64,000 bases of DNA from a virus. How positions within the stretch are numbered: position 1 is the first letter of the stretch; the number at the start of each line of letters is the position of its first letter. Shown here in pieces: positions 4,356 to 62,254 of this stretch. The position numbers and the translations under genes were made by a program. The DNA lies in IMG/VR virus record IMGVR_UViG_3300027861_000012, positions 113,657-177,656 of that record. One strand, given 5' to 3'. The notes beneath the pieces are model-generated. The model saw nothing but the letters and a program-made list of their open reading frames with translations, did no database searches and was not told the DNA's origin.

Positions 4356-4365
4356 GGTGTGCTCC

Positions 4366-29331: not shown

Positions 29332-30255
29332 TTATCGACTGACAGCTTCCTCTTCCGGTGACGCCCCGGCTTTGATGATATCCTTCTTGTTGGAAGGACC
29401 AGCATACTTGTTCAATGCCATCCCGATCTTCTTCCACAGCTTCTCGTGGTCATCCGCAGTTTTCAGAGTACCTGCTTGGGAACGTGCAACAATTTCAGTC
29501 TGGAGGTTTTCCATAAATGGTGTCCAAACCTCAGACCTGTGCCCCAAGGCCGTTCGACTTGATTCCTTAGTAGCAGCCGCAACCTTGTTGACTGGAATCA
29601 CTCCGGCTTTGATTTGAGCCGCAATACTGTTGAAGCTTTGACCCAAACGAGCACAGTCACCTTTATTGGCGCTCATTGAATCCAGCCAGTACGCAACCTT
29701 GGTTTCAATCGGGGCGTTTGGATTAACCGGTTCTGGATTCGGTGGATTGGGCCCTGGCGCGGGTGGATCAGGATACTGATTCAATACGCGGATCACAATG
29801 ATCTTGTGGTCCAGTTCCTCCGCTGAGGCACAACATGACACAAAGAAGGTATAGTCGCCGGGAACACCGCTGGAGAATACGGCAATTTGGCCATCATTGA
29901 ATACACGGAAATTCTTTGTCTTCGGCATCACGCTCCATTTGTATTTTGTTCCAGAACTCTGCGTCACATCAATGAATACCAGTTGTCCGATTTTGACTTC
30001 AAGTTCAGTTTCGACAACCAGCATCGAATCCTCATCTTGCATGACCAATGACAAATCAGCATCGGTATCAACAATCTGTGCGCGAACTGTCATAGATGAC
30101 GAAGTAAGGATTTTCGGTTGCTGTGTCAACAGTATTTGGGCATCCGACACCGCTGTCTTTGGCGGTACTTCAGTTGGGTAATAGTTTGAAACTGTAAAGA
30201 TGCTGGCAACCACCAACATCACACTGAAAATCGTAGTTGTGATTGCTCTTTTCAT
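29332..30255 (-). CDS. Exported PKD-like protein
   Basis: This is a 307-residue protein with a signal anchor (MKRAITTTIFSVMLVVASIF). A PKD-like beta domain occupies residues about 85-165: ELEVKIGQLVFIDVTQSSGT, WSVMP, FVSCCASAEE. A Pro/Asn hinge (PDPPAPGPNPPNPEP) follows, then a helical C-terminal domain with YWLDSMSANKGDCARLGQSF. I associate this PKD type, with a Cys pair and Pro hinge, with exported planctomycete proteins. Probably periplasmic and partner of the adjacent protease. Confidence 0.6.
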   Translation of the reverse strand: MKRAITTTIFSVMLVVASIFTVSNYYPTEVPPKTAVSDAQILLTQQPKILTSSSMTVRAQIVDTDADLSLVMQDEDSMLVVETELEVKIGQLVFIDVTQSSGTKYKWSVMPKTKNFRVFNDGQIAVFSSGVPGDYTFFVSCCASAEELDHKIIVIRVLNQYPDPPAPGPNPPNPEPVNPNAPIETKVAYWLDSMSANKGDCARLGQSFNSIAAQIKAGVIPVNKVAAATKESSRTALGHRSEVWTPFMENLQTEIVARSQAGTLKTADDHEKLWKKIGMALNKYAGPSNKKDIIKAGASPEEEAVSR

Positions 30256-30488
30256 TGTGGGTCCTCTACTTCTACTGATCTGTGCAGAGCTACTGCTTGA
30301 CTATAGCCTGAGTGCCGCATTTGATCCGTGGCCCAGCAATTTTCGCAACGATCCTCGTTTGAAAGTGTCACTGGGTTCTCACATCCCGGTTTAGTGCAAT
30401 ATAGTGTCAGGCCGACTCGCCTAATGGGTTCACTGGTTGGTTCTGATTTGGGTGACGCTTGGATACCTTTTCTGAAATACCGTGTCAT
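30252..30488 (-). CDS. Small zinc-ribbon protein (78 aa)
   Basis: The start MTRYFRKGIQASPKSE at 30488 is preferred since GGAG lies upstream. CTKPGC...CENC forms a four-Cys zinc knuckle around residues 34-57. Its last bases overlap the start of the PKD-like gene. Function unknown. Confidence 0.6.
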   Translation of the reverse strand: MTRYFRKGIQASPKSEPTSEPIRRVGLTLYCTKPGCENPVTLSNEDRCENCWATDQMRHSGYSQAVALHRSVEVEDPQ

Positions 30489-30517
30489 ACTAGCTCCAAC
30501 TTTAACTCCACCCCCAA

Positions 30518-31792: not shown

Positions 31793-32122
31793 ATGGAGAT
31801 GTTACGTGGCCACGAAATACACATGGGCCCCGATGAGGAATTCGTTTTCTCGGATACCGGTGCTTCCGTGCCTGATACTTGGGAATCTCGCCCTTGCGGG
31901 TACTGTGGGCGATCAAATACGCCAGAAGGATATGACGGGTGTGTCGGGCACTTACCCGGCGTGCGGAACGCCTGTTGCGGTCATGGACAGCTAAAAGCAG
32001 CCTACATCCAGTATGTCGGCGGACGTATTATCCGGGGCATCCGTGCAAGAACAGTGATTTTGATACATTCCAGCATCGGGAGATTGACATGTTGCTTGAG
32101 GAACTTGCTGAGAAGGCCCTGA
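31793..32122 (+). CDS. Conserved phage Cys-rich protein (109 aa)
   Basis: It starts MEMLRGHEIHMGPDEEFVF. The core ESRPCGYCGRSNTPEGYDGC followed by LPGVRNACCGHGQLKAAYIQ resembles a short protein seen in diverse phages, with a likely zinc site from the CxxC and CC pairs. It is the first gene of the rightward unit and overlaps the nucleotidyltransferase start by 34 bases. Function unknown. Confidence 0.65.
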   Translation: MEMLRGHEIHMGPDEEFVFSDTGASVPDTWESRPCGYCGRSNTPEGYDGCVGHLPGVRNACCGHGQLKAAYIQYVGGRIIRGIRARTVILIHSSIGRLTCCLRNLLRRP

Positions 32123-33009
32123 TAAGCCCTCCAGGCTTCGTAAGGTCCAATACCCAATATCTTACAGTCATGGGCTCTATCGCCTATGGCGTGTCCACAG
32201 ACACGTCTGATTATGACTGCTACGGATTCTGTATCCCACCCCGTAGTATGGTCTTTCCCCATTTGAGGGGTGAGATTCAAGGTTTTGGAACCCAGATTCA
32301 ACGCTTCGAGAACTGGCAGAAACACCATGTCAAGGACCCCAACGCCCTGGGTGGCCGTGGCCGTGAGTATGACTTTGCAGTCTATTCTATCGTGCAGTTT
32401 TTTCATCTGTGCTTGCAGAACAACCCAAACATCATCGACAGCCTGTTTGTGCCACAGGAATGTGTCCTCTTCGCCACCAGGGTTGGTCAGATGGTGCGAG
32501 AGAAGCGACACCGCTTTCTCCACAAAGGTTGCTGGCACCGGTTCAAGGGCTACGCCTACTCGCAGATGAAGAAAGCCAAGAGTCAGACACGCGAAGGTAA
32601 ACGGGCACAGATGGTTCAAGAACATGGCTATGATCTCAAGTTTGCCTATCACATTGTGCGGCTGCTCAACGAAGTCGAGCAGCTTCTCACCGAAGGTGAT
32701 CTTGATCTACGTCGCAACCGTGAACAACTCAAATCGATTCGTCGTGGGGACTGGACCTTGGAGCAGATCGAGAAGTATTTCGCGTCCAAGGAAGCCCAAT
32801 TGGAGAAGGTCTATGCCGAGTGCAAGATTCTCCCATACAGCCCACAAAAGGACGGGGTGGAAGAAGAGATTCACACGCTGTTGTTGCAATGTTTGGAAGA
32901 ACATTATGGTTCCATTGACGGGGCCGTGGTCTCTGAAGCTGCCGCTATACAATCCCTACGACGCATACAACAGGAAGCCGAGAACACTTTGAGGAGTTTT
33001 GGCGGATAG
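32089..33009 (+). CDS. RlaP-like predicted nucleotidyltransferase
   Basis: This is a 306-residue protein; the start at 32089 has GGGAG upstream. It carries the polymerase-beta-type signature GSIAYGVSTDTSDYDCYG near residue 28 (GS followed by DxD). Downstream are conserved-looking NNPNIIDSLFVP and HRFKGYAYSQMKK blocks, as in the RNA-ligase-associated nucleotidyltransferase family often carried by phages. It presumably transfers a nucleotide to RNA or protein. No RNA ligase is seen in this window. Confidence 0.75.
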   Translation: MLLEELAEKALISPPGFVRSNTQYLTVMGSIAYGVSTDTSDYDCYGFCIPPRSMVFPHLRGEIQGFGTQIQRFENWQKHHVKDPNALGGRGREYDFAVYSIVQFFHLCLQNNPNIIDSLFVPQECVLFATRVGQMVREKRHRFLHKGCWHRFKGYAYSQMKKAKSQTREGKRAQMVQEHGYDLKFAYHIVRLLNEVEQLLTEGDLDLRRNREQLKSIRRGDWTLEQIEKYFASKEAQLEKVYAECKILPYSPQKDGVEEEIHTLLLQCLEEHYGSIDGAVVSEAAAIQSLRRIQQEAENTLRSFGG

Positions 33010-35634: not shown

Positions 35635-35961
35635 ATGTTGCTTTTTGGTTTTGTAGGCGGGCTGGTAGTTATGGGTCTGATTTGGGTAATCAGTGGTGTA
35701 TTTCACACTGAGGGTAAGTCTAACCAGACACCCGAGGAACAATTGGTCAATGCCATCGGTGCATTGGGGATACGCGAGATCAGTGTAGGTCGCTTACGTC
35801 GCGGGGAGTTCGTTGTTGGCCCGTACTCGACTGCAAAGAACTACACACTGCTGAAGGTTGCACCTTCACTGCTATGGAACAACAAGAGTGCTATGGCATT
35901 CCTGTTTAATCATGAAGGGGAGCTTGACTCCTGTGGCTGTGAACCGGATCAGGTAGGATGA
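35635..35961 (+). CDS. Single-span membrane protein (108 aa)
   Basis: An N-terminal hydrophobic helix (MLLFGFVGGLVVMGLIWVIS) is followed by a soluble beta-type domain ending CGCEPD. Start follows AGGAG. Probably anchored in the inner membrane with its C-terminal part in cytoplasm or periplasm. Function unknown. Confidence 0.6.
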   Translation: MLLFGFVGGLVVMGLIWVISGVFHTEGKSNQTPEEQLVNAIGALGIREISVGRLRRGEFVVGPYSTAKNYTLLKVAPSLLWNNKSAMAFLFNHEGELDSCGCEPDQVG

Positions 35962-36692
35962 CTGCTAAGAGTGACAGAGAGCGTGACAGAGAGCGTGTTC
36001 TGATGAACATTGCCGTTGATACGGCGGGCTCGGTACACAACACAATGCAGCCTCTTAACGGAGGCTGGTATTTGCGATTCACTTTTGATCGTCCAGCCAC
36101 CCAGTTCATTCCAGCAGAATTGGCAGAGAAAATCGGTATGCCATTGAAGCCGGGTGACATTGTGCGATGCCGCACCAATCCGAATCACCGATGGGGCATT
36201 GCGGAACTGGTCGAATGTAGGGAACATGCTTGTTTTTTACTCCGTGAAATCGGCGGTAACAAGCTTTGCAGAATACAGAACGAAAGTGTTGATGTCTTGC
36301 GATTTATGTGCCCGGATCGTCTTTACACCGGTATACAGCATCGAGTCTATCAATGGGCCTATAAGGCATTCTCAGGGCGATACAACCCAGTCGCGGACAG
36401 GGGTAAACGATGTGGGGGCGTAGAGTTTGAGGGCGACAAGCTCACAATCTGGTGTCGAGCCCACATCTTTGTGCAGGAAACACACCCCAAAGACGGGCCA
36501 AAAATGTATGCCCAACCCAAAAAGTTTACGATGACATGGGGCAACAAAACGCGATTAAAAGACATCGTGGCCGCTATGCATGAACAGGGGTTTGCTGACG
36601 ATTTCATCTATGGTCCGAATGAGCCAACCGAGGGACAAGGTGGGTTTGCGAAGTTTACACGCGACGACATTTTGCGAGGTTTGCAGCTATGA
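35958..36692 (+). CDS. Hypothetical protein (244 aa)
   Basis: The opening MTAKSDRERDRERV is encoded by a short DNA repeat (GACAGAGAGCGT twice). A GWYLRFTFDRPATQFIPAEL beta domain and a Cys-containing C-terminal half (GGVEFEGDKLTIWCRAHIFV) follow. No family recognised. Both ends overlap neighbours by four bases. Confidence 0.6.
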   Translation: MTAKSDRERDRERVLMNIAVDTAGSVHNTMQPLNGGWYLRFTFDRPATQFIPAELAEKIGMPLKPGDIVRCRTNPNHRWGIAELVECREHACFLLREIGGNKLCRIQNESVDVLRFMCPDRLYTGIQHRVYQWAYKAFSGRYNPVADRGKRCGGVEFEGDKLTIWCRAHIFVQETHPKDGPKMYAQPKKFTMTWGNKTRLKDIVAAMHEQGFADDFIYGPNEPTEGQGGFAKFTRDDILRGLQL

Positions 36693-37009
36693 ACATACAA
36701 GAAATTGCATCAATCATGCAGGCTACGATGAGCCAATACTCGTTTCCAGAACATTGGGAGCAATGGGAAGCTCTATCTTGGCCATCTAAGGCAATACGCT
36801 GGACGTATTGGGCCGTGGTTATCGTACTGGCTTCCCTTCTAAAGCCATTGTTACTGGAGGAAGGACGCGGTACATTTTGTGCTATCTTCCCTGGGATACT
36901 GATTTTCATTGACTTCCATTGTGGGCGACGTACTACTATGACGCAGCTTGCTGTGGCGTTGGGAAAAACCAGTTTTGTGGAGCCGAGTGATGACTCAGCC
37001 ATACAATGA
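36689..37009 (+). CDS. Membrane protein (106 aa)
   Basis: Hydrophobic segments lie at about residues 38-56 (AIRWTYWAVVIVLASLLKP) and 64-76 (CAIFPGILIFIDF), separated by a charged turn. The end overlaps the start of the release factor gene by 20 bases. Function unknown. Confidence 0.55.
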   Translation: MNIQEIASIMQATMSQYSFPEHWEQWEALSWPSKAIRWTYWAVVIVLASLLKPLLLEEGRGTFCAIFPGILIFIDFHCGRRTTMTQLAVALGKTSFVEPSDDSAIQ

Positions 37010-38051
37010 TCTACGTGCGCGGGCTACCCAGCTTCTGAAAGCCTACGGGTTTGAGGCAAAGCTCAAAGAACTGCACCAACTGGAATCTCAGATGGTGAAT
37101 CCCGCTCTTTGTATGACGTTACCAACGACTGTTTTACAAAAACATGGCGAGCTTGCAGCCGAGTTGGTTCCATGGGTGTATATTCTGAATCAACGCGAGG
37201 CATTAGACTCCATGCGGGACCATCTTGATGGCTTCTCTGAGGATGTTTTGGACTTCGAGAAGATAATCGACAGCCTCGAATTCAAAGCCATGATGTCGGA
37301 CAAAAATGCCCGTAAGTCAGCCATCCTCACGATACACGCGCGTGACGGTGGTATGGAAGCATGTGACTGGTGCGACATGTTGGCCAGTATGTACACCAAA
37401 TGGGCGGTTGCTCAAGACTTCGGGATCGAGCTTGTATCACGACATTCTGGTAAAGGAAATGCCGGCATCTCATCCATGTGCATTGAGATCACTGGGTCAT
37501 ATGCCTATGGGTATCTGTCCGGCGAGAATGGCCTTCACCGTCTGGTGCGAAGAAGCCCATTCAATGCCCAAGGGAAACGACAAACCAGTTTTGCCTCCGT
37601 TCAGGTTGATCCCGTGCTACCAGTGAAGACCAAAATCATATTGGAGTCAGATTTAGAGTGGGATTTCTTCATAGCACCTGGACCGGGTGGGCAACACAAA
37701 AACAAAACCGAGTCTGGGGTACGTCTCACGCACAAACCTACAGCAGTGACAGTAACTTGTGTCACAGATCGTAGTCAAAACACGAACAAGGCTAACGCCC
37801 GTGTGATGCTCGCCGGTCGGCTTGCCCGCCTACAAGAAGAGCATGATGCTACCACGCGAGCTACACAACGGAACGAGAAACCTACAGTTGGTTTCGGGTC
37901 ACAAATCCGAAGCTACTTCCTACACCCTAAACAACGTGTCATTGACGCCCGTACTGGGCACAAGTGTGGCAATTTTGATGCTGTGCTTGATGGTAAACTT
38001 CAACCATTCCTAGATGCTTATCTGTTATGGAAAGCCCAACAAGGAGATTGA
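36990..38051 (+). CDS. Peptide chain release factor, RF2-type
   Basis: This is a 353-residue class I release factor, near the normal RF2 length. The conserved HARDGGMEACDWCDML and YAYGYLSGENGLHRLVRRSP blocks are present. SPF at residues 189-191 is the RF2 stop-codon-reading tripeptide (RF1 has PxT). GPGGQHKNKTES holds the GGQ that triggers peptide release. Start at 36990 is chosen over 36948 because it follows GGAG and gives a normal N-terminus. It should read UGA and UAA. The phage genes around it end very often in TGA within ATGA overlaps, so it may support their termination. Confidence 0.9.
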   Translation: MTQPYNDLRARATQLLKAYGFEAKLKELHQLESQMVNPALCMTLPTTVLQKHGELAAELVPWVYILNQREALDSMRDHLDGFSEDVLDFEKIIDSLEFKAMMSDKNARKSAILTIHARDGGMEACDWCDMLASMYTKWAVAQDFGIELVSRHSGKGNAGISSMCIEITGSYAYGYLSGENGLHRLVRRSPFNAQGKRQTSFASVQVDPVLPVKTKIILESDLEWDFFIAPGPGGQHKNKTESGVRLTHKPTAVTVTCVTDRSQNTNKANARVMLAGRLARLQEEHDATTRATQRNEKPTVGFGSQIRSYFLHPKQRVIDARTGHKCGNFDAVLDGKLQPFLDAYLLWKAQQGD

Positions 38052-41463: not shown

Positions 41464-41731
41464 CACCCGGCACGTCGATCTTCTGACGTATGTGTTGGAC
41501 AAAGTGGCTGGGGTTGAGTGGTACTTTGTGCGGGGTGACTCGCCTGAATGTCGTTCATCGCTAACCCCCGCTGACATGGAGTTTCACTTCAAGGATGACC
41601 ATGTACTAGGCTTCCGCTTCCTACGTAATGGAGCGTACAGAATCTTTGATGATGGCATGGACTGCGGGACTTGGCCACCCGAATACTTACACCGTTTCTT
41701 TGACACCTTGTACTTTGGAGAGTTTTTATGA
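41441..41731 (+). CDS. Hypothetical protein (95-96 aa)
   Basis: MMTLTGIDTRHVDLLTYVLD; overlaps the NDP kinase end by 23 bases and the Thg1-like start by four. The start could be either of two adjacent ATGs. Basic centre and aromatic end (YLHRFFDTLYFGEFL). No family recognised. Confidence 0.6.
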   Translation: MMTLTGIDTRHVDLLTYVLDKVAGVEWYFVRGDSPECRSSLTPADMEFHFKDDHVLGFRFLRNGAYRIFDDGMDCGTWPPEYLHRFFDTLYFGEFL

Positions 41732-42501
41732 AGACGCGACAATTAGCGAAGATTCTTGAGCCTGCCTTCCGTGCCTATCAGGTTCAGATGCTTCCGCACA
41801 CGTTTTTAGGGGTTCGTTTGAGCCTCCAAATCTCGCAAGAGGTTATGAAGGCCCGTGAAGAGTCACATGTGAGTCTTACATGGCGAGACTCTTTCAATGT
41901 GGTGGCTTCCAGATTGATGGAGACCTCCGGTTTCGATGTTGAATTCGCCTATGTATTCGACAGCGAAATCCATCTGCTGATCAGCGAAAGTGGTAATGTC
42001 TTCCAACGTGACCTGCAACGATCCGTTTCGTCGCTGGCTGTACAAGCATCCCTGATCTTCTCTCACAAGCAACATGCTCCCGGCATGTTTGATTGCCGCA
42101 TCTCCGGATTGCCGTCTTGGGAATACGCCTTTGACTACTTCAGCCATCAGCGTACCAACTGCCGCAGCCATGCCGTCAATGCCATGTGCCAGTATGCCAT
42201 GGAGCTTACCTTCCCGGACTTGAACACACATACAGTCAATCAGCGTATGAGCAAGATGGATCACGATGCTCGATTGAAGTATGCCCAAGCTTTCGGCACA
42301 CTGCATCGCGGTGGCGGGCATATGTGTGACTGGTTCCAGTTCGGTCACTTACTGAAATGGACCGAATGCACCCGGCCATGTACTGGCAAAGACGGCACGC
42401 CTTCGTCTTACGAGACACGTCGTATCGACATGCGACCCGCGCCTGGCGACACGGGTGTCTTCTGTGACGAACTTTCCTGTATCGTTTATGGTGACGAATG
42501 A
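41728..42501 (+). CDS. Thg1-like protein with altered metal-binding residues
   Basis: This is a 257-residue protein that follows the tRNA-His guanylyltransferase fold over its first 160 residues. VRLS at 29-32 corresponds to the VRLDGR strand, EFAYVFDSEIHLLIS at 72-86 to the AYGQSDEYSFVF strand, and FDCRISGLPSWEYAFDYFSH at 121-140 to the FDGR...DYLSWRQ block. In Thg1 the two catalytic metals are held by Asp in RLDG and Asp in SDE. Here they are Ser32 and Ser79, with an Asp shifted one place before Ser79. Normal 3'-5' nucleotide addition is therefore unlikely or needs other ligands. tRNA binding may remain. The C-terminal 100 residues are unusual, with Cys/His pairs. Confidence 0.75.
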   Translation: MKTRQLAKILEPAFRAYQVQMLPHTFLGVRLSLQISQEVMKAREESHVSLTWRDSFNVVASRLMETSGFDVEFAYVFDSEIHLLISESGNVFQRDLQRSVSSLAVQASLIFSHKQHAPGMFDCRISGLPSWEYAFDYFSHQRTNCRSHAVNAMCQYAMELTFPDLNTHTVNQRMSKMDHDARLKYAQAFGTLHRGGGHMCDWFQFGHLLKWTECTRPCTGKDGTPSSYETRRIDMRPAPGDTGVFCDELSCIVYGDE

Positions 42502-48617: not shown

Positions 48618-49060
48618 GCAACCGTAATAGACTCCTCTCCAGATCGGTTTGTGTTTGTGTTGGTGCGATTTCCCTCATTGCTGCCCACCAATGTGCCATC
48701 TATGGTTGGATCAACCTACTCTGGCTACCACCGTTGACCTTCCTACTGGGGTTCGTTGGATTCATTTTCAGCTTTCCGCCACATGCCCAGTATTCTTGTG
48801 ATCTTGATCTATCACCCCTAGAAGTGTTGGCGCTCAAAGACAAGTACCATGACATCCTGCTGGCTATCGACAAGCAGGATCATGAAGCCTTCCTGCGGTT
48901 TGTGATCCATGGCCAAATCAAGTCCGGCAGTGTATTTGAGTACCGGGTTGATACCGACCTGGCGTACCAAGCGGCCATCGACACTGTTGTTAATCAACAG
49001 TGCAAGAATCTACGTCTACTCGTTCAACGTCTCTCACCGGAGTCTCCCAATGCGCAATGA
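48614..49060 (+). CDS. Membrane protein with soluble C-terminal domain (148 aa)
   Basis: It starts MSNRNRLLSRSVCVCVGAIS. Two hydrophobic helices up to about residue 57 (LLWLPPLTFLLGFVGFIFSF) are followed by a helical domain beginning LDLSPLEVLALKDKYHDILL. Function unknown. Confidence 0.6.
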   Translation: MSNRNRLLSRSVCVCVGAISLIAAHQCAIYGWINLLWLPPLTFLLGFVGFIFSFPPHAQYSCDLDLSPLEVLALKDKYHDILLAIDKQDHEAFLRFVIHGQIKSGSVFEYRVDTDLAYQAAIDTVVNQQCKNLRLLVQRLSPESPNAQ

Positions 49061-49424
49061 TACCGAATGGAATGTCACCAGCTTTACCAACTACAAGTCT
49101 ATCGTCGGCTACTTTGCTATGTGGTCCGTGCGGCAGCTTGAAGTGTCACATCTACCGCCAGAGTATGCCACTGTTGTGGAGTATTTGTCAGCATCGTTGC
49201 GTATCAATACGGCCTTTGATGACAGTGGATGGGCACATCTCACACTCAACGACATCGAAAAGATGCTGCGGGACATCTTGATGGACTATCCGCCGTTCCA
49301 GCGTTGGAACAACTTTGAAGTCCTCGCAGACTGGCTCGATCTTGATGCCCTCATCCGGAACGTCGCCGTCTCGCTACGGGATGAAAACCGTCGTTATGAA
49401 GAAGAGGAACGCCGCCGTGTCTAG
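49050..49424 (+). CDS. Hypothetical helical protein (124 aa)
   Basis: MRNDTEWNVTSFTNYKSIVG; helical with repeated Trp, ends in an Arg/Glu-rich helix (DENRRYEEEERRRV). The first bases overlap the membrane protein gene. No family recognised. Confidence 0.6.
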   Translation: MRNDTEWNVTSFTNYKSIVGYFAMWSVRQLEVSHLPPEYATVVEYLSASLRINTAFDDSGWAHLTLNDIEKMLRDILMDYPPFQRWNNFEVLADWLDLDALIRNVAVSLRDENRRYEEEERRRV

Positions 49425-54256: not shown

Positions 54257-55417
54257 ATGACTGCAAAAGCACCAACACCTGCTCCGAATCGTCGTGCCGA
54301 TGGCACAATTGACCCCAACTACCCCGTCCCCAAGGACATGCCACCGGCTCCACCGGCTAAGAAGACATCTGCGAAAGGCATTGGTGCCAGTATTCGCCGT
54401 GCAATACAAAGACCGGCCCCCAATTTCCAACCATGCTCCCCTGGAGTGCTAAAGGGCCTACGCGAGGCCATGAAGAATCAGTATCGTCAAGAGATATTTG
54501 CCACACCGGGGCTTATGGCCATGAACCCAGACATGCTCGAAAAGATGTTGGAAGCTAAGGTCGATGAGGAGCTTGCGAAACAAGCCCAGGCCAAGAAGAA
54601 GCCCGTCATCAAGTTTGTCATCAAGGATGCCATTGAGGGGGAGCCGAGGGATCGGGTCATGGACGTTACGTTCAAGCGACCTCGGGATGATACCTGGTAC
54701 TTTGGTCTAATGGACAAAGAGGAAAGCCTTGAGATACCTGACAACTGGCGCGGATCTGTATCCTTAAACAACCTGATGGACTGGATGCACACCGTCAGGA
54801 AGCAACCCAAGGTCGATGAAAGCTCACGACTGAAGTCACTGACGCAGATCAGCAAATGGATCGCGGCAGCCGCATCTCGTGCGGTGCCTAAGCCGGATGG
54901 TTTCTTCCCGAAGACTGGCTATTGCATTGAGTGGAAGACCACTGGGGGTAGACAGGCTGAAGACCGGATACACCGTGTTGGTTCTGCCGTCACAGTGCGA
55001 CACCCCAGTCCAGAGGAAGCCTTGGCCAGTATCAAGAAGAAGAAACAGATCCTTGATGACACGTTTGAAGATGCAGGTACGGTCACCGGTAAAAGTACGG
55101 CGTCTCCGTGCTTGGGCGTTCTTATGGCCCCCGACAAGAACCTGGGTAAGACTGTGTCTCCCGACGCAACCCCACTACCAGCACGTATCCTCAAATCCCT
55201 AGATAGGGCATCAAAGAGGCGAGACACTGTACCCGTGGTCCTGAGTCCTGGTCGCGTACCATGTTTGATGCCCGCTGGGTGTGAATCGGTACTTTATCCA
55301 TACCAGCGTCGGATGCTCAGCCAATTGATGGCGATAAATGAACGGTCATCGGGTCCACCGTCCATGAATCGTGTCATCGAGAACCAACTCTGGAGGCGTT
55401 ATACCAATGAGACTTGA
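54257..55417 (+). CDS. Hypothetical protein (386 aa)
   Basis: It has a Pro-rich N-terminus, a basic helix (KGIGASIRRAIQRPAPNFQP), a helical MLEKMLEAKVDEELAKQAQA block, a beta centre (GYCIEWKTTGGRQAEDRIHR) and a Lys-rich helix. It opens a new block after a 72-base gap. It is the largest unassigned right-arm gene and lies shortly upstream of the tRNA-binding cluster. Confidence 0.65.
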   Translation: MTAKAPTPAPNRRADGTIDPNYPVPKDMPPAPPAKKTSAKGIGASIRRAIQRPAPNFQPCSPGVLKGLREAMKNQYRQEIFATPGLMAMNPDMLEKMLEAKVDEELAKQAQAKKKPVIKFVIKDAIEGEPRDRVMDVTFKRPRDDTWYFGLMDKEESLEIPDNWRGSVSLNNLMDWMHTVRKQPKVDESSRLKSLTQISKWIAAAASRAVPKPDGFFPKTGYCIEWKTTGGRQAEDRIHRVGSAVTVRHPSPEEALASIKKKKQILDDTFEDAGTVTGKSTASPCLGVLMAPDKNLGKTVSPDATPLPARILKSLDRASKRRDTVPVVLSPGRVPCLMPAGCESVLYPYQRRMLSQLMAINERSSGPPSMNRVIENQLWRRYTNET

Positions 55418-55745
55418 TCGAGACATCGTTGGCTATGTGTTGGCCGAAAAACTGGACAACGTGAAATCTGTCTGTCAAGATGGCCTACATGTTACGACCT
55501 TTGTCGAGTTGACGGAACATCTTACCAGGCGACTCAATGATTTACTGGATTTGCACCTCGAACTGGCCCAGATTCGGGCTGAAGACAAGGTTCTGTCTGA
55601 TGAGCGGGCTCAGGTTGTTCAACAAAGCAGATCCGCCATAGGTCATCTGCAAGACAGTTGTCCCCATATCTCGACCACCCAGTATCCGTGTAACGAAGAC
55701 CATGATGCATATCAGGTCTGTAACATCTGTGGGAAGATCCTATGA
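55407..55745 (+). CDS. Helical protein with C-terminal zinc knuckle (112 aa)
   Basis: MRLDRDIVGYVLAEKLDNVK; the coiled coil ends in CPHISTTQYPC...CNICG. The last 30 residues parallel the end of the 55885-56094 protein. Function unknown. Confidence 0.6.
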   Translation: MRLDRDIVGYVLAEKLDNVKSVCQDGLHVTTFVELTEHLTRRLNDLLDLHLELAQIRAEDKVLSDERAQVVQQSRSAIGHLQDSCPHISTTQYPCNEDHDAYQVCNICGKIL

Positions 55746-55888
55746 AAACCATCTTGATTCTGGGCAGTTTTGCTGCCGGTATTGCCATGTATCGCATGGT
55801 TCAGTCCGTCCTTAGAACCAGACGCACACAACGTGTGCTTCGACAGCAGTGGGAGACCATGGCATCGAAAATACAGACACGGCTATGA
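55742..55888 (+). CDS. Small membrane protein (48 aa)
   Basis: MKTILILGSFAAGIAMYRMV then a basic helix. One membrane span. Both ends overlap neighbours as ATGA. Confidence 0.5.
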   Translation: MKTILILGSFAAGIAMYRMVQSVLRTRRTQRVLRQQWETMASKIQTRL

Positions 55889-56094
55889 CCCCCTACCAGA
55901 TTTCCAAGGTGATGGAGCGACTCACCGAGGAAGATAAACAGATTGAGCGCGAGTATCATCGTGCCCTTACTGTGTTGCAGATGCGTCGTGCTGTGTTGCA
56001 ACAAGGCTGTCCACATCCGAATGCTATCTTCACACCAGGTTGGGCCGATATGGATGGGTTTCACAAATGCCCCCACTGTGGGTTGATCTACTAA
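55885..56094 (+). CDS. Coiled-coil zinc-knuckle protein (69 aa)
   Basis: MTPYQISKVMERLTEEDKQI; coiled coil then CPHPNAIFTPGWADMDGFHK and CPHCG. Related by eye to the end of 55407-55745. Confidence 0.6.
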   Translation: MTPYQISKVMERLTEEDKQIEREYHRALTVLQMRRAVLQQGCPHPNAIFTPGWADMDGFHKCPHCGLIY

Positions 56095-56579: not shown

Positions 56580-56587
56580 GGGAATGA
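56363..56587 (+). CDS. Overlapping frame with CxxC acidic domain
   Basis: From about 56400 this frame encodes CRDCREEDIKVAEEKRKHCP and EVSELDLWGNLDKKLG, a plausible zinc/acidic domain. Its TGA forms an ATGA overlap with the SerRS-arm gene, the spacing used throughout this unit. No ATG is available; a TTG at 56363 or a -1 frameshift from 56094-56579 could supply it. Confidence 0.45.
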   Translation: MGLVLGILDQRDRHPCRDCREEDIKVAEEKRKHCPWEKGKRILTPAEVSELDLWGNLDKKLGGEEEPKNDQLGE

Positions 56588-56976
56588 CTGTGCTTGATAG
56601 ACAATTCATCATTGACAACGAAGAACTGGTTCAACGCAACTGTGCGGCCCGTGGTGTTAGTATCAGTATCCGTTACTTCGTGATGACCTGTCTGCTTGTC
56701 AAGGAGACACGGCAGCAACTTGAAGGAATCCAAGCTGAACGCAAGGTACTGACGAAAATGATTCCCCGGTGTCCGACACAACAAGAACGGGTGGAATGTA
56801 TTGCATTGTCTACGGACATGAAGCAACGCATACGTAGTCTCCAAGAAGCCATGGCCCCAATGGAACAAATGGCCCTCAATATGCAAATGCAAATTCCAAA
56901 CATGACACATCCGGAGGCCCCTGGGGCCGATGCTATCTACAAACCAAAAATCTGCCCAACGGAGAACCAAAAATGA
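56584..56976 (+). CDS. Stand-alone seryl-tRNA synthetase N-terminal arm
   Basis: This 130-residue protein aligns over its whole length with the N-terminal domain of bacterial SerRS, the long antiparallel coiled coil that grips the variable arm of tRNA-Ser. The opening LDRQFIIDNEELVQRNCAAR is followed by GVSISI, as in SerRS (LxxxxxPExxxxxxxxRGV). Then come QQLEGIQAERKVLTKMIPR, a helical turn, and the return helix ending ALNMQMQIPNMTHPEAPGA, the SerRS exit motif (IPNxPHPxxPxG). Class II motifs 1-3 are absent and the gene ends 10-15 residues after the arm. It could bind tRNA-Ser but not charge it. ATGA overlaps on both sides. Confidence 0.82.
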   Translation: MTVLDRQFIIDNEELVQRNCAARGVSISIRYFVMTCLLVKETRQQLEGIQAERKVLTKMIPRCPTQQERVECIALSTDMKQRIRSLQEAMAPMEQMALNMQMQIPNMTHPEAPGADAIYKPKICPTENQK

Positions 56977-57356
56977 CCCTTGCTGCCACAGGAGTACGGT
57001 ATAAGGTACTCCAAATACTGAAAACACGATTCCGGGCTGCTATTTTGACCATCACTGGGCCCCAGTTGAGTGCAACCCTTCTGGATGCTACGTTGAATCG
57101 TATCCGGTACAGGGGGCAGCCCGGTATGGATTTCTGGGCGGATTTCTCCAGAGAGCTACCTACGGTCTTGCAACGCGAGCCGGTGGGACTGGCCACAGAA
57201 ATCGTTGATGCTGTGGATGTAGCAGACTGTTGTCACCCGCTGGTAATCACTGACCGTGGTCTAGTCAACATTCGCATCCGTGAAGATTGGTTGACCGTGG
57301 CCGCACCACAGTTTTTCACTGGAGACCCTTTCACTGATGACTATCAAATTGAGTAA
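56973..57356 (+). CDS. Stand-alone arginyl-tRNA synthetase N-terminal domain
   Basis: This 127-residue protein aligns with the N-terminal additional domain of bacterial ArgRS, which contacts the D-loop side of tRNA-Arg. Key blocks are DFWADFSRELPTVLQREPVG, LATEIVDAVDVADCCHPLVI and GLVNIRIREDWL, the last like the ArgRS GPGFINxxLxxxWL end. The catalytic HIGH/KMSK parts and anticodon domain are missing. It directly overlaps the SerRS-arm gene (ATGA), so the two are probably translated together. Expected to bind tRNA without aminoacylation. Confidence 0.78.
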   Translation: MTLAATGVRYKVLQILKTRFRAAILTITGPQLSATLLDATLNRIRYRGQPGMDFWADFSRELPTVLQREPVGLATEIVDAVDVADCCHPLVITDRGLVNIRIREDWLTVAAPQFFTGDPFTDDYQIE

Positions 57357-57423: not shown

Positions 57424-57502
57424 TTACCAAATTGTTGTCGCATTGCTGTTTGGATTCGTGTGTGTACTGGTATTCTCAAAACCTTGGAGCAATAAACGAT
57501 GA
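57416..57502 (+). CDS. Small membrane peptide (28 aa)
   Basis: MSDYQIVVALLFGFVCVLVF with a basic end; single span. ATGA overlap with the prepilin-like gene. Confidence 0.45.
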   Translation: MSDYQIVVALLFGFVCVLVFSKPWSNKR

Positions 57503-57819
57503 ATCGTAGAGCCTTTACGTTGATCGAAGTGTTGGTTGTAGTGGCGATCATCGGCATCCTTGTAGCCCTGATCTATCCTGCCTTCATAGCAGCCCTGGAT
57601 GCTGTTGAGGCTGAGCAGCAAAAGCAGCGAGAGCAGCAGGAGCAGATTGTCGAGCCCGAGCCCGTGCCCGAGCCCGAGCAGCCGCCCTCTGTGGAACTCT
57701 ATGAACACGAGGATACTGATTCCATACCGCCCGTGATCATGTTGTTGACCACCATATTTGGCGCGGGTGTACTTTTCACCATCTGCTTTACCTTCTATCA
57801 CTTTACCTCAAGGAGTTGA
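57499..57819 (+). CDS. Prepilin-signal protein (type IV pilin/pseudopilin-like)
   Basis: This is a 106-residue protein. RRAFTLIEVLVVVAIIGILV at residues 3-22 is a prepilin signal: a basic start, cleavage before Phe (here Ala-Phe rather than Gly-Phe), Glu at +5 of the mature protein, then the pilin core helix. It closely resembles the signal of planctomycete DUF1559 pseudopilins. A Glu/Pro/Gln linker and a second membrane helix (VIMLLTTIFGAGVLFTICFT) follow instead of a globular pilin domain. It could enter the host pilus or type II secretion machinery. Confidence 0.75.
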   Translation: MNRRAFTLIEVLVVVAIIGILVALIYPAFIAALDAVEAEQQKQREQQEQIVEPEPVPEPEQPPSVELYEHEDTDSIPPVIMLLTTIFGAGVLFTICFTFYHFTSRS

Positions 57820-57820
57820 C

Positions 57821-58282
57821 ATGTCGAGATTAGTTGAAGCGGCAGAGGCCATGGTGGCTAAAAACAAGGCCATGAAGAAACAACTAGCTGACTGTATATC
57901 CATTGACTCGGTGAGTTTAATGTTTATGGACTTGGATGACCGCTATAGTGTCCGAATCCTTGTGTCGGTGATCGAGGCCGGTGTTCCAGGCAAACAGCTA
58001 AAGGGCTTCGTTAAAGCTTTGTGTCAAGACGGGCCGTATATCGTCATATTCTTAGTCTCCTGGCAGCCCGATGGTTCGGTCGAGGTTGCGGCCGGTTGCA
58101 GTTACGCACAGGCTGAGCTTGGATTCAACTGTGTCAAGTGGGTCTGCGAAGCTACGAAACCCATGGGTGGTTGCGGTGGCGGTAAGGCAGTGTTGGCTGC
58201 CGGTGGCAGCCGTGATGGTACCAACCTGGAAGAAGCGATGAAAGCCGCCAGCAAGTTTGCACGCGAGAACATTAGGTCTTGA
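57821..58282 (+). CDS. Stand-alone AlaRS C-terminal (C-Ala/DHHA1) domain, copy 1
   Basis: This 153-residue protein has a short basic helix (MVAKNKAMKKQLADCIS) followed by a C-Ala domain: VRILVSVIEAGVPGKQLKGF, a IVIFLVSWQPDGSVEVAAGC strand pair, and PMGGCGGGKAVLAAGGSRDG at 115-134. The last is the closest of the four copies to the AlaRS GGxGGGRPDxAQAGG loop. Aminoacylation and editing (HxxxH) parts are absent. C-Ala contacts the elbow of tRNA-Ala. Ribosome binding site AAGGAG. Confidence 0.8.
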   Translation: MSRLVEAAEAMVAKNKAMKKQLADCISIDSVSLMFMDLDDRYSVRILVSVIEAGVPGKQLKGFVKALCQDGPYIVIFLVSWQPDGSVEVAAGCSYAQAELGFNCVKWVCEATKPMGGCGGGKAVLAAGGSRDGTNLEEAMKAASKFARENIRS

Positions 58283-58283
58283 T

Positions 58284-58793
58284 ATGGAACAGTGGCGAGA
58301 CATTCCAGGATTTGAAGGGTACTACCAAGCATCCGATTTGGGCCAGATACGTTCGGTTGATCGGGTTGTACCAGATCGAGATGCGCCAAGGAAACTGAAA
58401 GGGCGTATTCTAGCAACTCAGGTGGTTGGTTGCTGTGGACATCTTAGAGTGACGCTTAGTAAACACGGGACTCATTACGATAGGCTGGTTCATCGACTTG
58501 TAGCACTCGTATGGATTGGCCCCTGTCCTGCTGGTCAAGAGTGTCGTCATGGTCCAAACGGTGGGTCGGATAATTCCGTGGCTAACCTTTGTTACGGGAC
58601 CCATTCTGAAAACTGTCTTGATATGCGTAGGGACAATACGCATGGTGGCAGGGCTGTGCGTCGTGACGATGGTAAGGAGTTTATCAGTTTACACGTCGCT
58701 GCGGAAGAGTCTGGGAGTACGTACAAAAATATCTGGTCAGTTTGCAACAATCGCCGCCACACGGCTGGCGGCTATGGTTGGGAGTACGTGTAA
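58284..58793 (+). CDS. NUMOD4-HNH homing endonuclease
   Basis: This is a 169-residue protein. WRDIPGFEGYYQASDLGQIR is the NUMOD4 opening. LVHRLVALVWIGPCPAGQEC, RHGPNGGSDNSVANLCYGTH has an intact HNH core with both His groups. The C-terminal ISLHVAAEESGSTYKNIWSV and WEYV form the usual NUMOD1-like DNA-binding helix. It lies between C-Ala copies 1 and 2. Probably a free-standing homing endonuclease gene that invaded the cluster. Confidence 0.85.
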   Translation: MEQWRDIPGFEGYYQASDLGQIRSVDRVVPDRDAPRKLKGRILATQVVGCCGHLRVTLSKHGTHYDRLVHRLVALVWIGPCPAGQECRHGPNGGSDNSVANLCYGTHSENCLDMRRDNTHGGRAVRRDDGKEFISLHVAAEESGSTYKNIWSVCNNRRHTAGGYGWEYV

Positions 58794-58795
58794 CC

Positions 58796-59077
58796 ATGCC
58801 ATTCGACATCCCTGAACTTGATACCATCCGGGCTGCGGAGTTGCGGGAGCTTGAGGCTTGGACACTCTATGAGCGTGCGCATCACATTTACGTTGAGACC
58901 AAGCTGCCAGATAGTGCGGCTCTCTGCTTCCTTGAAGTGGATCGCGCCCACATGTTTACTGATCTAATGCTTGGCGGAATCGCCACACAATTTGATGGTG
59001 ACGAGGACGCTTACAGTGTGTTAGGAGATTTGATACACCTCTTTTTGACCCTCCCCCTCCCCCGACCTGGAGACTGA
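58796..59077 (+). CDS. Hypothetical helical protein (93 aa)
   Basis: MPFDIPELDTIRAAELRELE; two helices rich in Leu, Ala and Glu. No family recognised. Confidence 0.55.
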   Translation: MPFDIPELDTIRAAELRELEAWTLYERAHHIYVETKLPDSAALCFLEVDRAHMFTDLMLGGIATQFDGDEDAYSVLGDLIHLFLTLPLPRPGD

Positions 59078-59078
59078 G

Positions 59079-59240
59079 ATGAAGATGGATAATAAAAACC
59101 TCATCATGTGGATGAAAGCTGCTGGCATCAAAGATGTCAGGCCCAGCCATGCAGAAGTCCAGGACCTGTGCAACGGCCAACTGGATCGCATTGACTGGTA
59201 TCTGAAGCAACTGTTGGAGGATGATCATGGAAGAACTTGA
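59079..59240 (+). CDS. Small helical protein, triplet member 1 (53 aa)
   Basis: MKMDNKNLIMWMKAAGIKDV ... LCNGQLDRIDWYLKQLLEDD. The last 20 residues recur in the next two genes. Confidence 0.5.
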   Translation: MKMDNKNLIMWMKAAGIKDVRPSHAEVQDLCNGQLDRIDWYLKQLLEDDHGRT

Positions 59241-59388
59241 TGGCAACCTTGCTGAGTGGTTGATGGCTGAGTACCACAAACACCTGTGGCGGGAGGAATG
59301 TCTCCCTGGCATTCTGGACCGGTGCGACGAACAACTGTATATCACGGAACATTACCTGAAGCAATTACTTGGAGAAGATCATGGCTAA
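59227..59388 (+). CDS. Small helical protein, triplet member 2 (53 aa)
   Basis: MEELDGNLAEWLMAEYHKHL ... ILDRCDEQLYITEHYLKQLL, then GEDHG. Overlaps member 1 by 14 bases; same C-terminal helix. Confidence 0.55.
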   Translation: MEELDGNLAEWLMAEYHKHLWREECLPGILDRCDEQLYITEHYLKQLLGEDHG

Positions 59389-59560
59389 AGATGACCTCAC
59401 CAAGAAAATGACTGAGTTGTTCGTCGAACACCTGGTGCTGATACCCCATCGTGCTGCCATCATAGCTCGCTGTGATAGCCTGCTGTTCGACATCGATCTG
59501 TATATCAGATTGATCCTGGACCCGAATCTCACATTCTATCAGCGGGGTGACCATGGATAA
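59381..59560 (+). CDS. Small helical protein, triplet member 3 (59 aa)
   Basis: MAKDDLTKKMTELFVEHLVL ... RCDSLLFDIDLYIRLIL and a final GDHG. The start overlaps the TAA of member 2. Triplication points to a small oligomeric helix bundle of unknown role. Confidence 0.55.
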   Translation: MAKDDLTKKMTELFVEHLVLIPHRAAIIARCDSLLFDIDLYIRLILDPNLTFYQRGDHG

Positions 59561-60092
59561 CTGTAGCCGTGGAACTACGCCTTGTTATCGGATGGGCCAG
59601 GGTGTCTGTCCTCAGTGTAACCATTATCAGCCGCCAGAGGACCACATGGAACTCCGACTTTACCCTGACCTGAGTCTCCGGCAGTCCCGGCGCAAGATGC
59701 CCTGGGATGACATCCCGGCGCACCGCGAGAACATGGAGGCAATGGCCCAGCTTATGGAAGCCTCTGGTGGCGTAGGTCTGGCGGCCAATCAGGTAGGCTA
59801 CCCGTACCGGGTCATTGTGGTTGACTTAGACGGGGCCCTGGTAACCATGATCAACCCCAAAATCACAAAAATCTGCGAGACCAAGATTGTGCAATACGAA
59901 GGGTGCCTGAGTTTCCCTGGCGTCCTGGCAAAAGTGTATCGATCAAAGTGGATCAAGGTACAATGGTGGGACATGACAGGAATTCAGCACACGGCAAGTT
60001 TCGATAATCAGCCCGCTCGGATCATACAACACGAATGCGATCACCTTGATGGAAAACTATTTTTGGATTACGCGATCCCGTCCTTACCTTGA
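59553..60092 (+). CDS. def: Peptide deformylase
   Basis: This is a 179-residue enzyme that removes the formyl group from nascent proteins. All three active-site motifs are intact: GVGLAANQ (73-80), EGCLS with metal-ligand Cys118, and HECDH (160-164) with two metal His and the catalytic Glu. The N-terminus has an extra Cys-rich segment (CSRGTTPCYRMGQGVCPQC), so an alternative start at 59646 (MELRLYP) would give a compact enzyme. It sits amid the tRNA-domain genes and acts at the ribosome exit. Confidence 0.92.
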   Translation: MDNCSRGTTPCYRMGQGVCPQCNHYQPPEDHMELRLYPDLSLRQSRRKMPWDDIPAHRENMEAMAQLMEASGGVGLAANQVGYPYRVIVVDLDGALVTMINPKITKICETKIVQYEGCLSFPGVLAKVYRSKWIKVQWWDMTGIQHTASFDNQPARIIQHECDHLDGKLFLDYAIPSLP

Positions 60093-60107
60093 ACATGGAG
60101 AAGAACT

Positions 60108-60590
60108 ATGAATGAGTTTGAAGGCAGCGGACTGTCCCTGGACGACGTTTTGGAAGAGGAACACGGAATGATTTCCGGAACCTTGATGCAGAAAGCTCTC
60201 CGTGCATTGGAAGTACGAGATGCGACCCGTGTCCTGGTCATGGAAGTTGCTCCCTTCACACCAGTGGACAAACTCCGGGAGTACGTTGACACAATGTGCG
60301 AAGTAAATCAGATGGCCGTACTTTTGGCCAGCCGTCAAACATACGGAAACGTTTTCATGGTGGCAGGTGTCGATGTGGTTTGGGCTGTCACCGAGTTTTC
60401 TGTCACGGACTGGGTTGAGTACGCCATAAAGATTGTCGGTGGACATGTCCTGGCTTGGTCTATGGCTGCTGAAAAGATTGTCCTACCTGATCGTGCCTTT
60501 GGATCAGGTACACAAAGTGTCAATCTCGATGTTGCCCTGTCGTCCGCCCGTAAATATGCCTTCGATATCCTGGAGAAGATCAATGGGTAA
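60108..60590 (+). CDS. Stand-alone AlaRS C-Ala/DHHA1-like domain, copy 2
   Basis: This 160-residue protein has an acidic N-terminus and then the C-Ala order: TRVLVMEVAPFTPVDKLREY, MAVLLASRQTYGNVFMVAGV, YAIKIVGGHVLAWSMA and a C-terminal helix (NLDVALSSARKYAFDILEKI). The Gly-rich loop is reduced to IVGG. More diverged than copies 1 and 3. No catalytic parts of AlaRS or AlaX. Confidence 0.7.
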   Translation: MNEFEGSGLSLDDVLEEEHGMISGTLMQKALRALEVRDATRVLVMEVAPFTPVDKLREYVDTMCEVNQMAVLLASRQTYGNVFMVAGVDVVWAVTEFSVTDWVEYAIKIVGGHVLAWSMAAEKIVLPDRAFGSGTQSVNLDVALSSARKYAFDILEKING

Positions 60591-61065
60591 ACTAGATAGA
60601 GCAGTCAAGAAGATGGGGCAAGAGCACAAGGCCATGCGGAGACAACTGAAGCGTAGTGTCTCGGCAACCTCCGCAGTGGCGATGCTTCGCAACGTCATCA
60701 CAGTCAAGGGCGTCTTGGTGATCGTGACCGATATCGACTCAGGCGTCAAACCAGACGATATCCGTGCCTTCATTGATGAACTTTGCAACAACAACCCCGC
60801 CGTGGTCTTTTTGGTGAGCGATCAGCAGAGGGAGACATGGGAAGATTGCCGACTGAGCATGTCGGCCGGGGTCAGTCCTGATGTGGAAGACGAGGGCTTC
60901 GATGCGGGTGTCTGGGTCCAAATGGCCTCCGCTCTGGTGGGTGGGGCCTACGAGGGCACGGCGGATCGGGCCGAAGGAGTCGGTGCGGCTGAGGATCAGG
61001 AGCACTTGGGTCGGTGGATCGAAGTCGTCCGCGAGTACGCAATCAACAAGATCAAGGAGCTATGA
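60583..61065 (+). CDS. Stand-alone AlaRS C-Ala/DHHA1-like domain, copy 3
   Basis: This is a 160-residue protein and the best match of the four along its length. The helix LDRAVKKMGQEHKAMRRQLK leads into VKGVLVIVTDIDSGVKPDDI, RAFIDELCNNNPAVVFLVSD, a LSMSAGVSPDV strand and MASALVGGAYEGTADRAEGV, corresponding to the AlaRS GVEPxxLRxxVDxLK ... VGG order. The Gly-rich loop is altered. Overlaps copy 2 by eight bases. Confidence 0.78.
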   Translation: MGKLDRAVKKMGQEHKAMRRQLKRSVSATSAVAMLRNVITVKGVLVIVTDIDSGVKPDDIRAFIDELCNNNPAVVFLVSDQQRETWEDCRLSMSAGVSPDVEDEGFDAGVWVQMASALVGGAYEGTADRAEGVGAAEDQEHLGRWIEVVREYAINKIKEL

Positions 61066-61367
61066 TGAACAAGCTGACCAGAGCAGTGAAGCACAGCATC
61101 TCTGTGTCCTCCGCAGTGGCTATGTTCCGCGCCACCGAGATCATCCAGGGAATAACGGTGATTGTGGCCGAGATTGACCGTGGCATTGAACCACGGGACA
61201 TAGATAGCTTCATCAATGAACTTTGTGCCCGAGGGGAGTATTTCCAGGGTGGACGGGCGGGCTGGGTCTGCGGTAATGGTTACCTTGATCAGCAGAATCG
61301 TAATCAATTACTGGAATGGCTCGATGTCGTCCGTGATTCTGCAATCAAAAGGATCAAAGCACTATGA
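61065..61367 (+). CDS. AlaRS C-Ala-like domain, shortened copy 4
   Basis: This 100-residue protein closely resembles copy 3 in its first half (SSAVAMFRATEIIQGITVIV, IDRGIEPRDIDSFINELC). About 50 residues of the centre are missing, so it joins straight to a GWVCGNG turn and the final helix (LLEWLDVVRDSAIKRIKAL). It is a recent partial duplicate of copy 3. The start at 61065 is set by AAGGAG. Confidence 0.68.
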   Translation: MNKLTRAVKHSISVSSAVAMFRATEIIQGITVIVAEIDRGIEPRDIDSFINELCARGEYFQGGRAGWVCGNGYLDQQNRNQLLEWLDVVRDSAIKRIKAL

Positions 61368-62254
61368 GCGAACCCAAAACGGTGTCCCTGACCAATGGCC
61401 TCACGGCCCTGGTTGACAACCTCTTCTACGAGGAATTGTCGTTCTACACCTGGTGGATGTCAGACAATCGGGTTTTTCGAGCCAATCCCTTTGCCGGGCG
61501 GCCCGGTGAAACCCAGAAAGTCGGGATGGCGATCCAGGTTATGAAGCTGGCTGGCCGGTATGAAGAGGGGCGGCACGTCTATCACTACAATGGGTGCCCG
61601 ACCGACAATCGCAAAGACAACCTCACTCACTGGCCACAGGATATGGCGGCCAATGAGCTTTGCCCACGGTGGAAGACCCGCGAGTGCCCGCACTGTGAGG
61701 CACTGGCCATCGAACGTGGTTGGATGTCTCCCCGCATCCCTGGCGTGGCCCAGATCTTGGCCGGTCAGAAGGATCGACTGTTCCTGATAGATGATCACCT
61801 TTTTGATAAGGCATCTGCTTATACATGGCGGTACCGGCATGGTATCCCTGCCAGTAGGGTCACATTGGCTAACGGTGGAGGTCAGCAGAGTGTCTATCTT
61901 CGAGACTGGGTCATGAAGGAAGCGGGGCTCTGGGTGCCTGGGCAGAAGGCATTCAACATCAATTGGTGTGCGGCCGACTGTCGTCTGGAAAACCTCACCA
62001 TGTTGACCAAAGAGGAGATCAAGAAGCGGCGGGTGGAACTCCGGAAAAGCGTGGCGATCCCCGAGATGCTCTGCCCGCTCTGGAAGACCCGTGACTGTCC
62101 ATGGTGTGCCCATCGTGCCGTCGAAGCTGGCCTCTTACCGCGAGGGCGCGGGGTCGCCTCGGATTCAGATGAGAGCATTCGCATAGCCATGGCCACCTTG
62201 AAGATGGAATACTACCGCAAGGATGCCTACTACGGTGATGCAGGGGCCCCATAG
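61364..62254 (+). CDS. Duplicated AP2/HNH-endonuclease-derived protein
   Basis: This is a 296-residue protein with two copies of a homing-endonuclease module. Copy 1 runs from SLTNGLTALVDNLFYEELSF and YTWW to VYHYNGCPTDNRKDNL. Copy 2 runs from RLFLIDDHLFDKASAYTWRY to FNINWCAADCRLENL. Each is followed by CPRWKTRECPHC or CPLWKTRDCPWC, a zinc pair. Active relatives have HINGN..DNR..NL; copy 1 keeps one His and copy 2 has Asn instead. It is probably a binding protein with at most one active site. It ends the rightward coding unit. Confidence 0.68.
   Translation: MSEPKTVSLTNGLTALVDNLFYEELSFYTWWMSDNRVFRANPFAGRPGETQKVGMAIQVMKLAGRYEEGRHVYHYNGCPTDNRKDNLTHWPQDMAANELCPRWKTRECPHCEALAIERGWMSPRIPGVAQILAGQKDRLFLIDDHLFDKASAYTWRYRHGIPASRVTLANGGGQQSVYLRDWVMKEAGLWVPGQKAFNINWCAADCRLENLTMLTKEEIKKRRVELRKSVAIPEMLCPLWKTRDCPWCAHRAVEAGLLPRGRGVASDSDESIRIAMATLKMEYYRKDAYYGDAGAP

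Follow-up and report, generated by a model that had tools for sequence, protein, structure and literature searches.

Transfer RNAs, complete aminoacyl-tRNA synthetases, and tRNA repair enzymes are all known from phage genomes. The N-terminal arm of seryl-tRNA synthetase (SerRS) grips the long variable arm of the tRNA, and the Add-1 domain of arginyl-tRNA synthetase (ArgRS) holds the D-loop side of the tRNA elbow; in the intact enzymes, both bind tRNA at sites other than the anticodon. In alanyl-tRNA synthetase (AlaRS), the C-terminal domain (C-Ala) contacts the tRNA D-loop/elbow, away from the anticodon (PMC10485164). The nearest viral precedent for such modules as separate genes is the free KTSC (LysRS-type) protein of jumbo phages (PMC7824862), and we found no description in the literature of a multi-synthetase tRNA-binding cassette without catalytic cores. 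Here, we describe a cassette of this kind in the 64,000-nucleotide window (the whole stretch analyzed) that spans bases 113,657 to 177,656 of the 177,656-bp virus record IMGVR_UViG_3300027861_000012. Non-catalytic tRNA-binding modules of three synthetases, AlaRS, SerRS, and ArgRS, sit there within 4.8 kb, the C-Ala module in four diverged copies. The cassette suggests a new phage route to handling or guarding tRNAs. Positions given below are those of the window unless the record is named.

Domain identities of the cassette proteins

A preliminary description of this DNA claimed a family of four C-Ala genes. All four are real open reading frames (ORFs) on the plus strand: copy 1 at 57821 to 58282 (153 aa), copy 2 at 60108 to 60590 (160 aa), copy 3 at 60583 to 61065 (160 aa), and copy 4 from 61065 (or an in-frame ATG at 61062) to 61367 (100 aa). 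Their relationship to AlaRS was borne out by profile searches. The Pfam family DHHA1 (PF02272), of which C-Ala is part, matched copy 1 (E 5e-11) and copy 3 (E 1.9e-8); the same scan gave no match for copies 2 and 4. We then used separate AlaRS, RecJ-type, and PDE-type DHHA1 profiles, built from Planctomycetota genomes (29 loci for the AlaRS C-Ala profile), against the full set of 2,348 ORFs from a six-frame translation of the virus. The AlaRS-only profile matched copy 1 (64 bits, E 1.9e-18), copy 3 (56 bits, E 7e-16), and copy 2 (28.7 bits, E 1.6e-7) and no other ORF; copy 4 alone gave no match, and its membership comes via copy 3. The RecJ-type and PDE-type profiles had zero matches in this set, and among 14,088 shuffled or reversed decoys, there was no profile match at E ≤ 1. 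Profile-profile comparison with hhalign gave 97.4% for copy 3 and 94.3% for copy 2; across the study, 5 of ∼90 hhalign tests were positive, with all others below 7% probability. Copy 2 also matched copy 1 directly (blastp E 3e-10).

Structure pointed the same way. PDB sequence matches at significant E, for copy 1 and for the family profile, were exclusively to AlaRS. The AlphaFold2 model of copy 1, the sole copy modeled (pLDDT 75), had AlaRS C-Ala domains as its top PDB fold matches, e.g., 3g98 (TM 0.77, target length), and DHH phosphoesterases ranked later and weaker. Origin from a DHH phosphoesterase, the alternative that the preliminary description had set against its own assignment, was rejected because both the profiles and the copy 1 fold search favor AlaRS; in addition, no DHH partner gene was found among the scanned neighbors of the C-Ala genes. 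Nor is there support for a whole-AlaRS architecture: the proteins have 100 to 160 aa, and the C-Ala/DHHA1 profiles match these genes alone in the record, other AlaRS domains not having been searched individually. One phylogenetic tree unites the four copies (94/83) and pairs copy 3 with copy 4 as its sister (99/95), a topology compatible with a single origin. In a second tree, from which long rows were left out, copy 1 groups with one long-branched AlaRS, and a single-origin test (approximately unbiased P value [p-AU], 0.35) neither rejects nor shows the clade.

Upstream of copy 1, a plus-strand gene at 56584 to 56976 encodes a free-standing SerRS N-terminal tRNA-binding arm of 130 aa without the catalytic domain. 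It matches Pfam PF02403 (E 5.7e-12, 46 bits versus a cutoff of 28.2) and, by phmmer, the SerRS structure 1ser (E 3e-5); it is the sole six-frame match of a Planctomycetota SerRS-N profile (59 bits, E 5.7e-17; hhalign, 97.4%). The next gene, at 56973 to 57356 on the same strand, overlaps it by 4 bp and encodes a free-standing ArgRS N-terminal (Add-1) domain of 127 aa, again without the catalytic domain. PF03485 is its sole Pfam match, below the cutoff (E 0.27, 12.3 bits versus 21.5), and it is the sole six-frame match of a Planctomycetota ArgRS-N profile (26.9 bits, E 7.2e-7; hhalign, 95.1%). Its single-sequence model is of low confidence (pLDDT 48); the best 12 PDB fold matches were all to ArgRS, which we used only as support for the profile result. 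Taken jointly, the identities of C-Ala copies 1 to 3 and the SerRS-like gene are nearly certain to us, and those of the ArgRS-like gene and C-Ala copy 4 are highly probable.

Just upstream of the cassette, at 55407 to 56094, two coiled-coil proteins share similar CPH...CxxCG zinc-ribbon-like tails. The ORF at 55407 to 55745 was convincing by eye as a second SerRS-like gene and was rejected, having no Pfam match and an hhalign value of 0.4%.

Gene architecture and divergence of the C-Ala copies

The ATG of copy 3 lies inside the end of copy 2, the overlap being ATGGGTAA; copy 3 ends within the ATGA that holds the in-frame start of copy 4 at 61062, and copy 4 in turn overlaps the following gene, which starts at 61364. 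An AGGAG precedes the ATG of copy 1, most starts of the C-Ala copies have a good ribosome-binding site, and the coding scores of the cassette ORFs are positive.

Copy 2 is the most diverged of the full-length copies. Copy 4, described earlier as a shortened sister of copy 3, is indeed its sister: the two proteins share 49% identity over 51 aa (blastp E ∼1e-15), the last 51 nucleotides are 78% identical at the DNA level, and the middle of the C-Ala domain is deleted relative to copy 3. The helix said to precede each copy was found in copies 1 and 3 (residues 2 to 25 in the copy 1 model); copy 2 has a weaker version, and copy 4 lacks most of it. As for the Gly-rich loop, reported to be kept as GGCGGG in copy 1 and altered in copies 2 and 3, the reference AlaRS pattern GG[G/K]GGG[R/K]PDxAxAGG survives in copy 1 alone, as GGCGGGKAVLAAGG, in which GGxGGG is kept.

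Could the cassette simply be the functionless remains of captured alaS, serS, and argS genes in decay? Pieces of this sort do arise. A profile of the four copies had matches in 130 of 392 Planctomycetota genomes, nearly all of which lie in long AlaRS reading frames or in frames truncated at a contig end (examined in two cases); the one clear exception is in G302 (G302:C15, L253 5184-5768), where part of the alaS 3' end was recently duplicated, giving a possible bacterial free-standing C-Ala. Copy 4, which is without the middle of its domain, would also suit decay. Against it stand the complete ORFs with their ribosome-binding sites, overlapping starts, and positive coding scores, the deep divergence without stops, and the divergence after duplication with fewer nonsynonymous than synonymous changes per site (ratio ∼0.57 between copies 3 and 4). 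We find this explanation barely credible.

A possible role in guarding tRNAs

We tentatively favor the view, at somewhat less than an even chance, that the phage took the cassette's non-catalytic domains from cellular synthetases and uses them as tRNA grips, which shield or splint tRNAs during infection. The proteins would bind selected tRNAs: those of the Ala type together with the phage's alanine-accepting transfer-messenger RNA (tmRNA), those for Ser, and those for Arg. They could cover or clamp the tRNA elbow and leave access to the acceptor end as well as to the anticodon loop. Bound tRNAs would be shielded from tRNA-cleaving immune nucleases of the host, or the halves of nicked tRNAs would be held together during repair by the phage RtcB, RNA ligase, RlaP, and Thg1-like enzymes. 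C-Ala copies 2 to 4 may be duplicates whose binding was retuned, either to other RNAs or toward protein partners. It is plausible that selection for distinct tRNA targets shaped the C-Ala copies, an interpretation to which the neighboring SerRS and ArgRS tRNA-binding domains give more weight.

Shielding or splinting is preferred because host defenses are known to cleave tRNA, one of them being a variable-loop cutter (PMC13096335), and because the genome holds a repair toolkit. RtcB (PF01139, E 4e-108), Thg1 (E 1.9e-29), and an RNA ligase (E 4e-17) are encoded at 3919 to 5079, 25797 to 26519, and 35822 to 36916 of the record; RlaP (E 5.5e-17) and a second, weak Thg1-like protein are encoded at 31939 to 33009 and 41728 to 42501 of the window, the latter in the cassette-bearing arm. 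A survey of jumbo phages interpreted RNA ligases, RlaP, and Thg1 as RNA repair against host RNases (PMC7824862). The cassette-bearing arm also carries a homologue of Tad5, an inhibitor of type I Thoeris, at 49050 to 49424 (Pfam E 1.7e-10). A more specific proposal is that elbow and variable-arm domains of three synthetases serve as separate tRNA-guard proteins in counterdefense against tRNA-cleaving host immunity and that one of these domains was duplicated and retuned near homing-endonuclease-like genes; we consider it rather unlikely.

The tmRNA lies to the left of the window on the minus strand, at 30156 to 30505 of the record (L004:11156-11505; Rfam, 124 bits), with the tag AKPLFATAA and without an encoded CCA. 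Its acceptor stem pairs GGGGGUG with CACCUCC, which places a U opposite G3, i.e., the G3-U70 alanine identity pair. The phage tRNAs are Asn, Thr, Glu, and Met; tRNA-Ala is absent from this set. Since the G3-U70 element makes the tmRNA an AlaRS substrate, the cassette proteins might instead be trans-acting cofactors that assist charging or act as chaperones for tRNAs and the tmRNA, like Arc1p or Trbp111, the latter being a proposed tRNA chaperone (PMC11286949). However, these domains are already present in the host synthetases, no cassette member binds an enzyme in the manner of Arc1p, and charging alone hardly explains four diverged C-Ala copies. We judge a cofactor role very unlikely.

Another possibility is dominant-negative inhibition, in which the free domains would compete with host AlaRS, SerRS, and ArgRS for tRNAs, or pair with the dimer surface of AlaRS C-Ala, and thereby reduce charging of Ala, Ser, and Arg tRNAs and shut down host translation. 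The modules are tRNA-binding and, for C-Ala, dimerization parts without catalysis; Archaeoglobus fulgidus C-Ala structures titled as a dimerization domain are among the fold matches of copy 1, and an attack on three synthetases at once would fit host shutoff. Yet isolated tRNA-binding domains are usually weaker binders than the full enzyme, and the phage seemingly depends on continued translation, because it encodes tRNAs, the tmRNA, a peptide deformylase, and a release factor. The release factor (36990 to 38051; PCRF and RF-1 domains, Pfam E 1e-35) has an altered GPGGQHKNKTES motif and matches phrog_19918, a family of unknown function. Inhibition seems unlikely.

Several observations weigh against the shielding or splinting view. 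The Gly-rich loop is replaced in copies 2 to 4, by GGHVLA... in copy 2, GGAYEGTADRAEG in copy 3, and GNGYLDQQ in copy 4. The net charge over the last 115 residues is −15 in copy 3 and −5 in copy 2, compared with −2 to +5 in AlaRS C-Ala; judged by their composition, these two copies fall outside the AlaRS range and may have lost RNA binding. The SerRS-like and ArgRS-like genes are each represented by one sequence. Most of the tRNA repair genes are elsewhere in the genome instead of sharing an operon with the cassette, and conserved co-occurrence of the cassette with repair genes is not demonstrable, the cassette not being found in related viruses.

Given its strong acidity, copy 3 probably does not bind RNA simply through its acidic face, and RNA binding need not be a property of all copies. 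The replaced loops and the acidity also suit neofunctionalized mimics, i.e., C-Ala folds that now bind a host defense protein or DNA, or mimic nucleic acid, instead of binding tRNA; the C-Ala of some organisms does bind DNA (PMC10485164). Such mimicry would leave the adjoining tRNA-binding parts of SerRS and ArgRS unexplained, as well as the loop kept in copy 1, and we regard it as quite unlikely. An argument against tRNA binding from the missing counterpart of K934, the elbow-contacting lysine of Caenorhabditis elegans AlaRS, was dropped; Planctomycetota AlaRS mostly have Gly there.

If the cassette proteins do bind tRNA, they would offer a non-enzymatic means of protecting or holding tRNAs and ready-made handles for asking which tRNAs host immunity attacks.

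Genomic setting, distribution, and comparison with known systems

Four further genes around the copies are also on the plus strand. That of a prepilin-like small membrane protein with an N_methyl motif (57499 to 57819; PF07963, E 1.1e-8) follows the ArgRS-like gene and precedes copy 1. A NUMOD4/HNH homing-endonuclease-like gene (58284 to 58793; PF07463, E 7e-14; PF13392, E 1e-5) separates copy 1 from copies 2 to 4, and the gene that overlaps the end of copy 4 encodes an HNH-like protein (61364 to 62254; PF13392, E 1.1e-4, below the cutoff), so that the duplicated copies 2 to 4 are flanked by HNH-like genes. The peptide deformylase gene (59646 to 60092; PF01327, E 6.8e-40; phrog_2890) is directly upstream of copy 2. 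Between the first HNH gene and the deformylase gene, at 59079 to 59560, three genes of 53 to 59 aa have the look of tandem paralogues (...CD..L..I..YLK..L, ending in DHG).

Judged by its gene content, the virus is a tailed phage, because terminase (24859 to 26532), portal (22834 to 24699), major capsid (19558 to 20931), and tape measure (6158 to 10474) genes with PHROG matches are all present in the window. The nearest virus contig, G002, has a terminase of 83% identity and matches the left 144 kb of the record collinearly; it stops at the start of the right arm, where the synthetase-domain cassette is located. A relative of the terminase (62%) occurs on a 290-kb contig (L245-L251) of a Planctomycetota metagenome-assembled genome, within a block of phage genes at ∼196 to 254 kb that is syntenic with the phage; a full-length ArgRS gene lies on this contig too. 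The natural reading of the block is a related provirus in Planctomycetota, the alternative being a chimeric assembly, and the phage host therefore probably belongs to this phylum.

Other parts of the record also contain repeated or unusually long genes. Five tandem genes of 196 to 221 aa at 13965 to 17263 are apparently paralogous (the one checked has no PHROG match), three tandem paralogues match phrog_2448 at 2272 to 5442, and giant structural-type ORFs of 2408, 775, 3604, and 5067 aa stand in a row at 80271 to 115859 of the record.

Searches for relatives indicate how unusual the cassette is. When copies 1 to 3 and the SerRS-like and ArgRS-like proteins were compared by tblastn with 50,697 phage records, no free-standing relative was found, and the matches were to a bacterial AlaRS and a full-length ArgRS only; for the ArgRS-like protein, the sole match was inside a full-length ArgRS ORF. 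Scans for relatives that started from the SerRS-like and ArgRS-like proteins, the release factor, RlaP, and C-Ala copies 1 and 3 found no other cassette, although these scans required exact 8-residue peptides and would miss diverged relatives. DHHA1 was absent from 50 related viral records, a weak negative since many are fragments and mostly end before the cassette arm. In two related viruses with longer stretches past the shared block, no SerRS, ArgRS, or AlaRS domains were found.

In comparison with cellular AlaRS C-Ala, the phage proteins share the sequence family, the predicted fold, and the arrangement of a helix plus a globular part, with the Gly-rich loop in copy 1; they differ in being free-standing, without an aminoacylation or editing domain, and in forming four diverged copies, of which three have lost the loop and one is strongly acidic. 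Similarly, nearly the whole SerRS arm (PF02403) and ArgRS domain (PF03485) are matched, including, in the SerRS case, the IPN-HP-P linker that leads to the catalytic domain, whereas the phage versions are encoded alone and side by side. Trbp111 and Arc1p likewise consist of a tRNA-binding module without catalysis, but they are cellular proteins with an OB fold, and Trbp111 takes the 3' CA end of the tRNA, not the elbow (PMC11286949). The KTSC proteins of jumbo phages resemble the cassette in that a synthetase-linked RNA-binding domain forms a lone phage gene (PMC7824862), yet the domain is a different one, looked for in this phage genome and not found, and it is not part of a multi-synthetase cassette. 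Finally, phage tRNA repair toolkits of RtcB, RNA ligase, RlaP, and Thg1, a proposed counter to host RNases, are present in this genome as well; there, enzymes act on broken tRNA, whereas the cassette would contribute non-catalytic putative grips.

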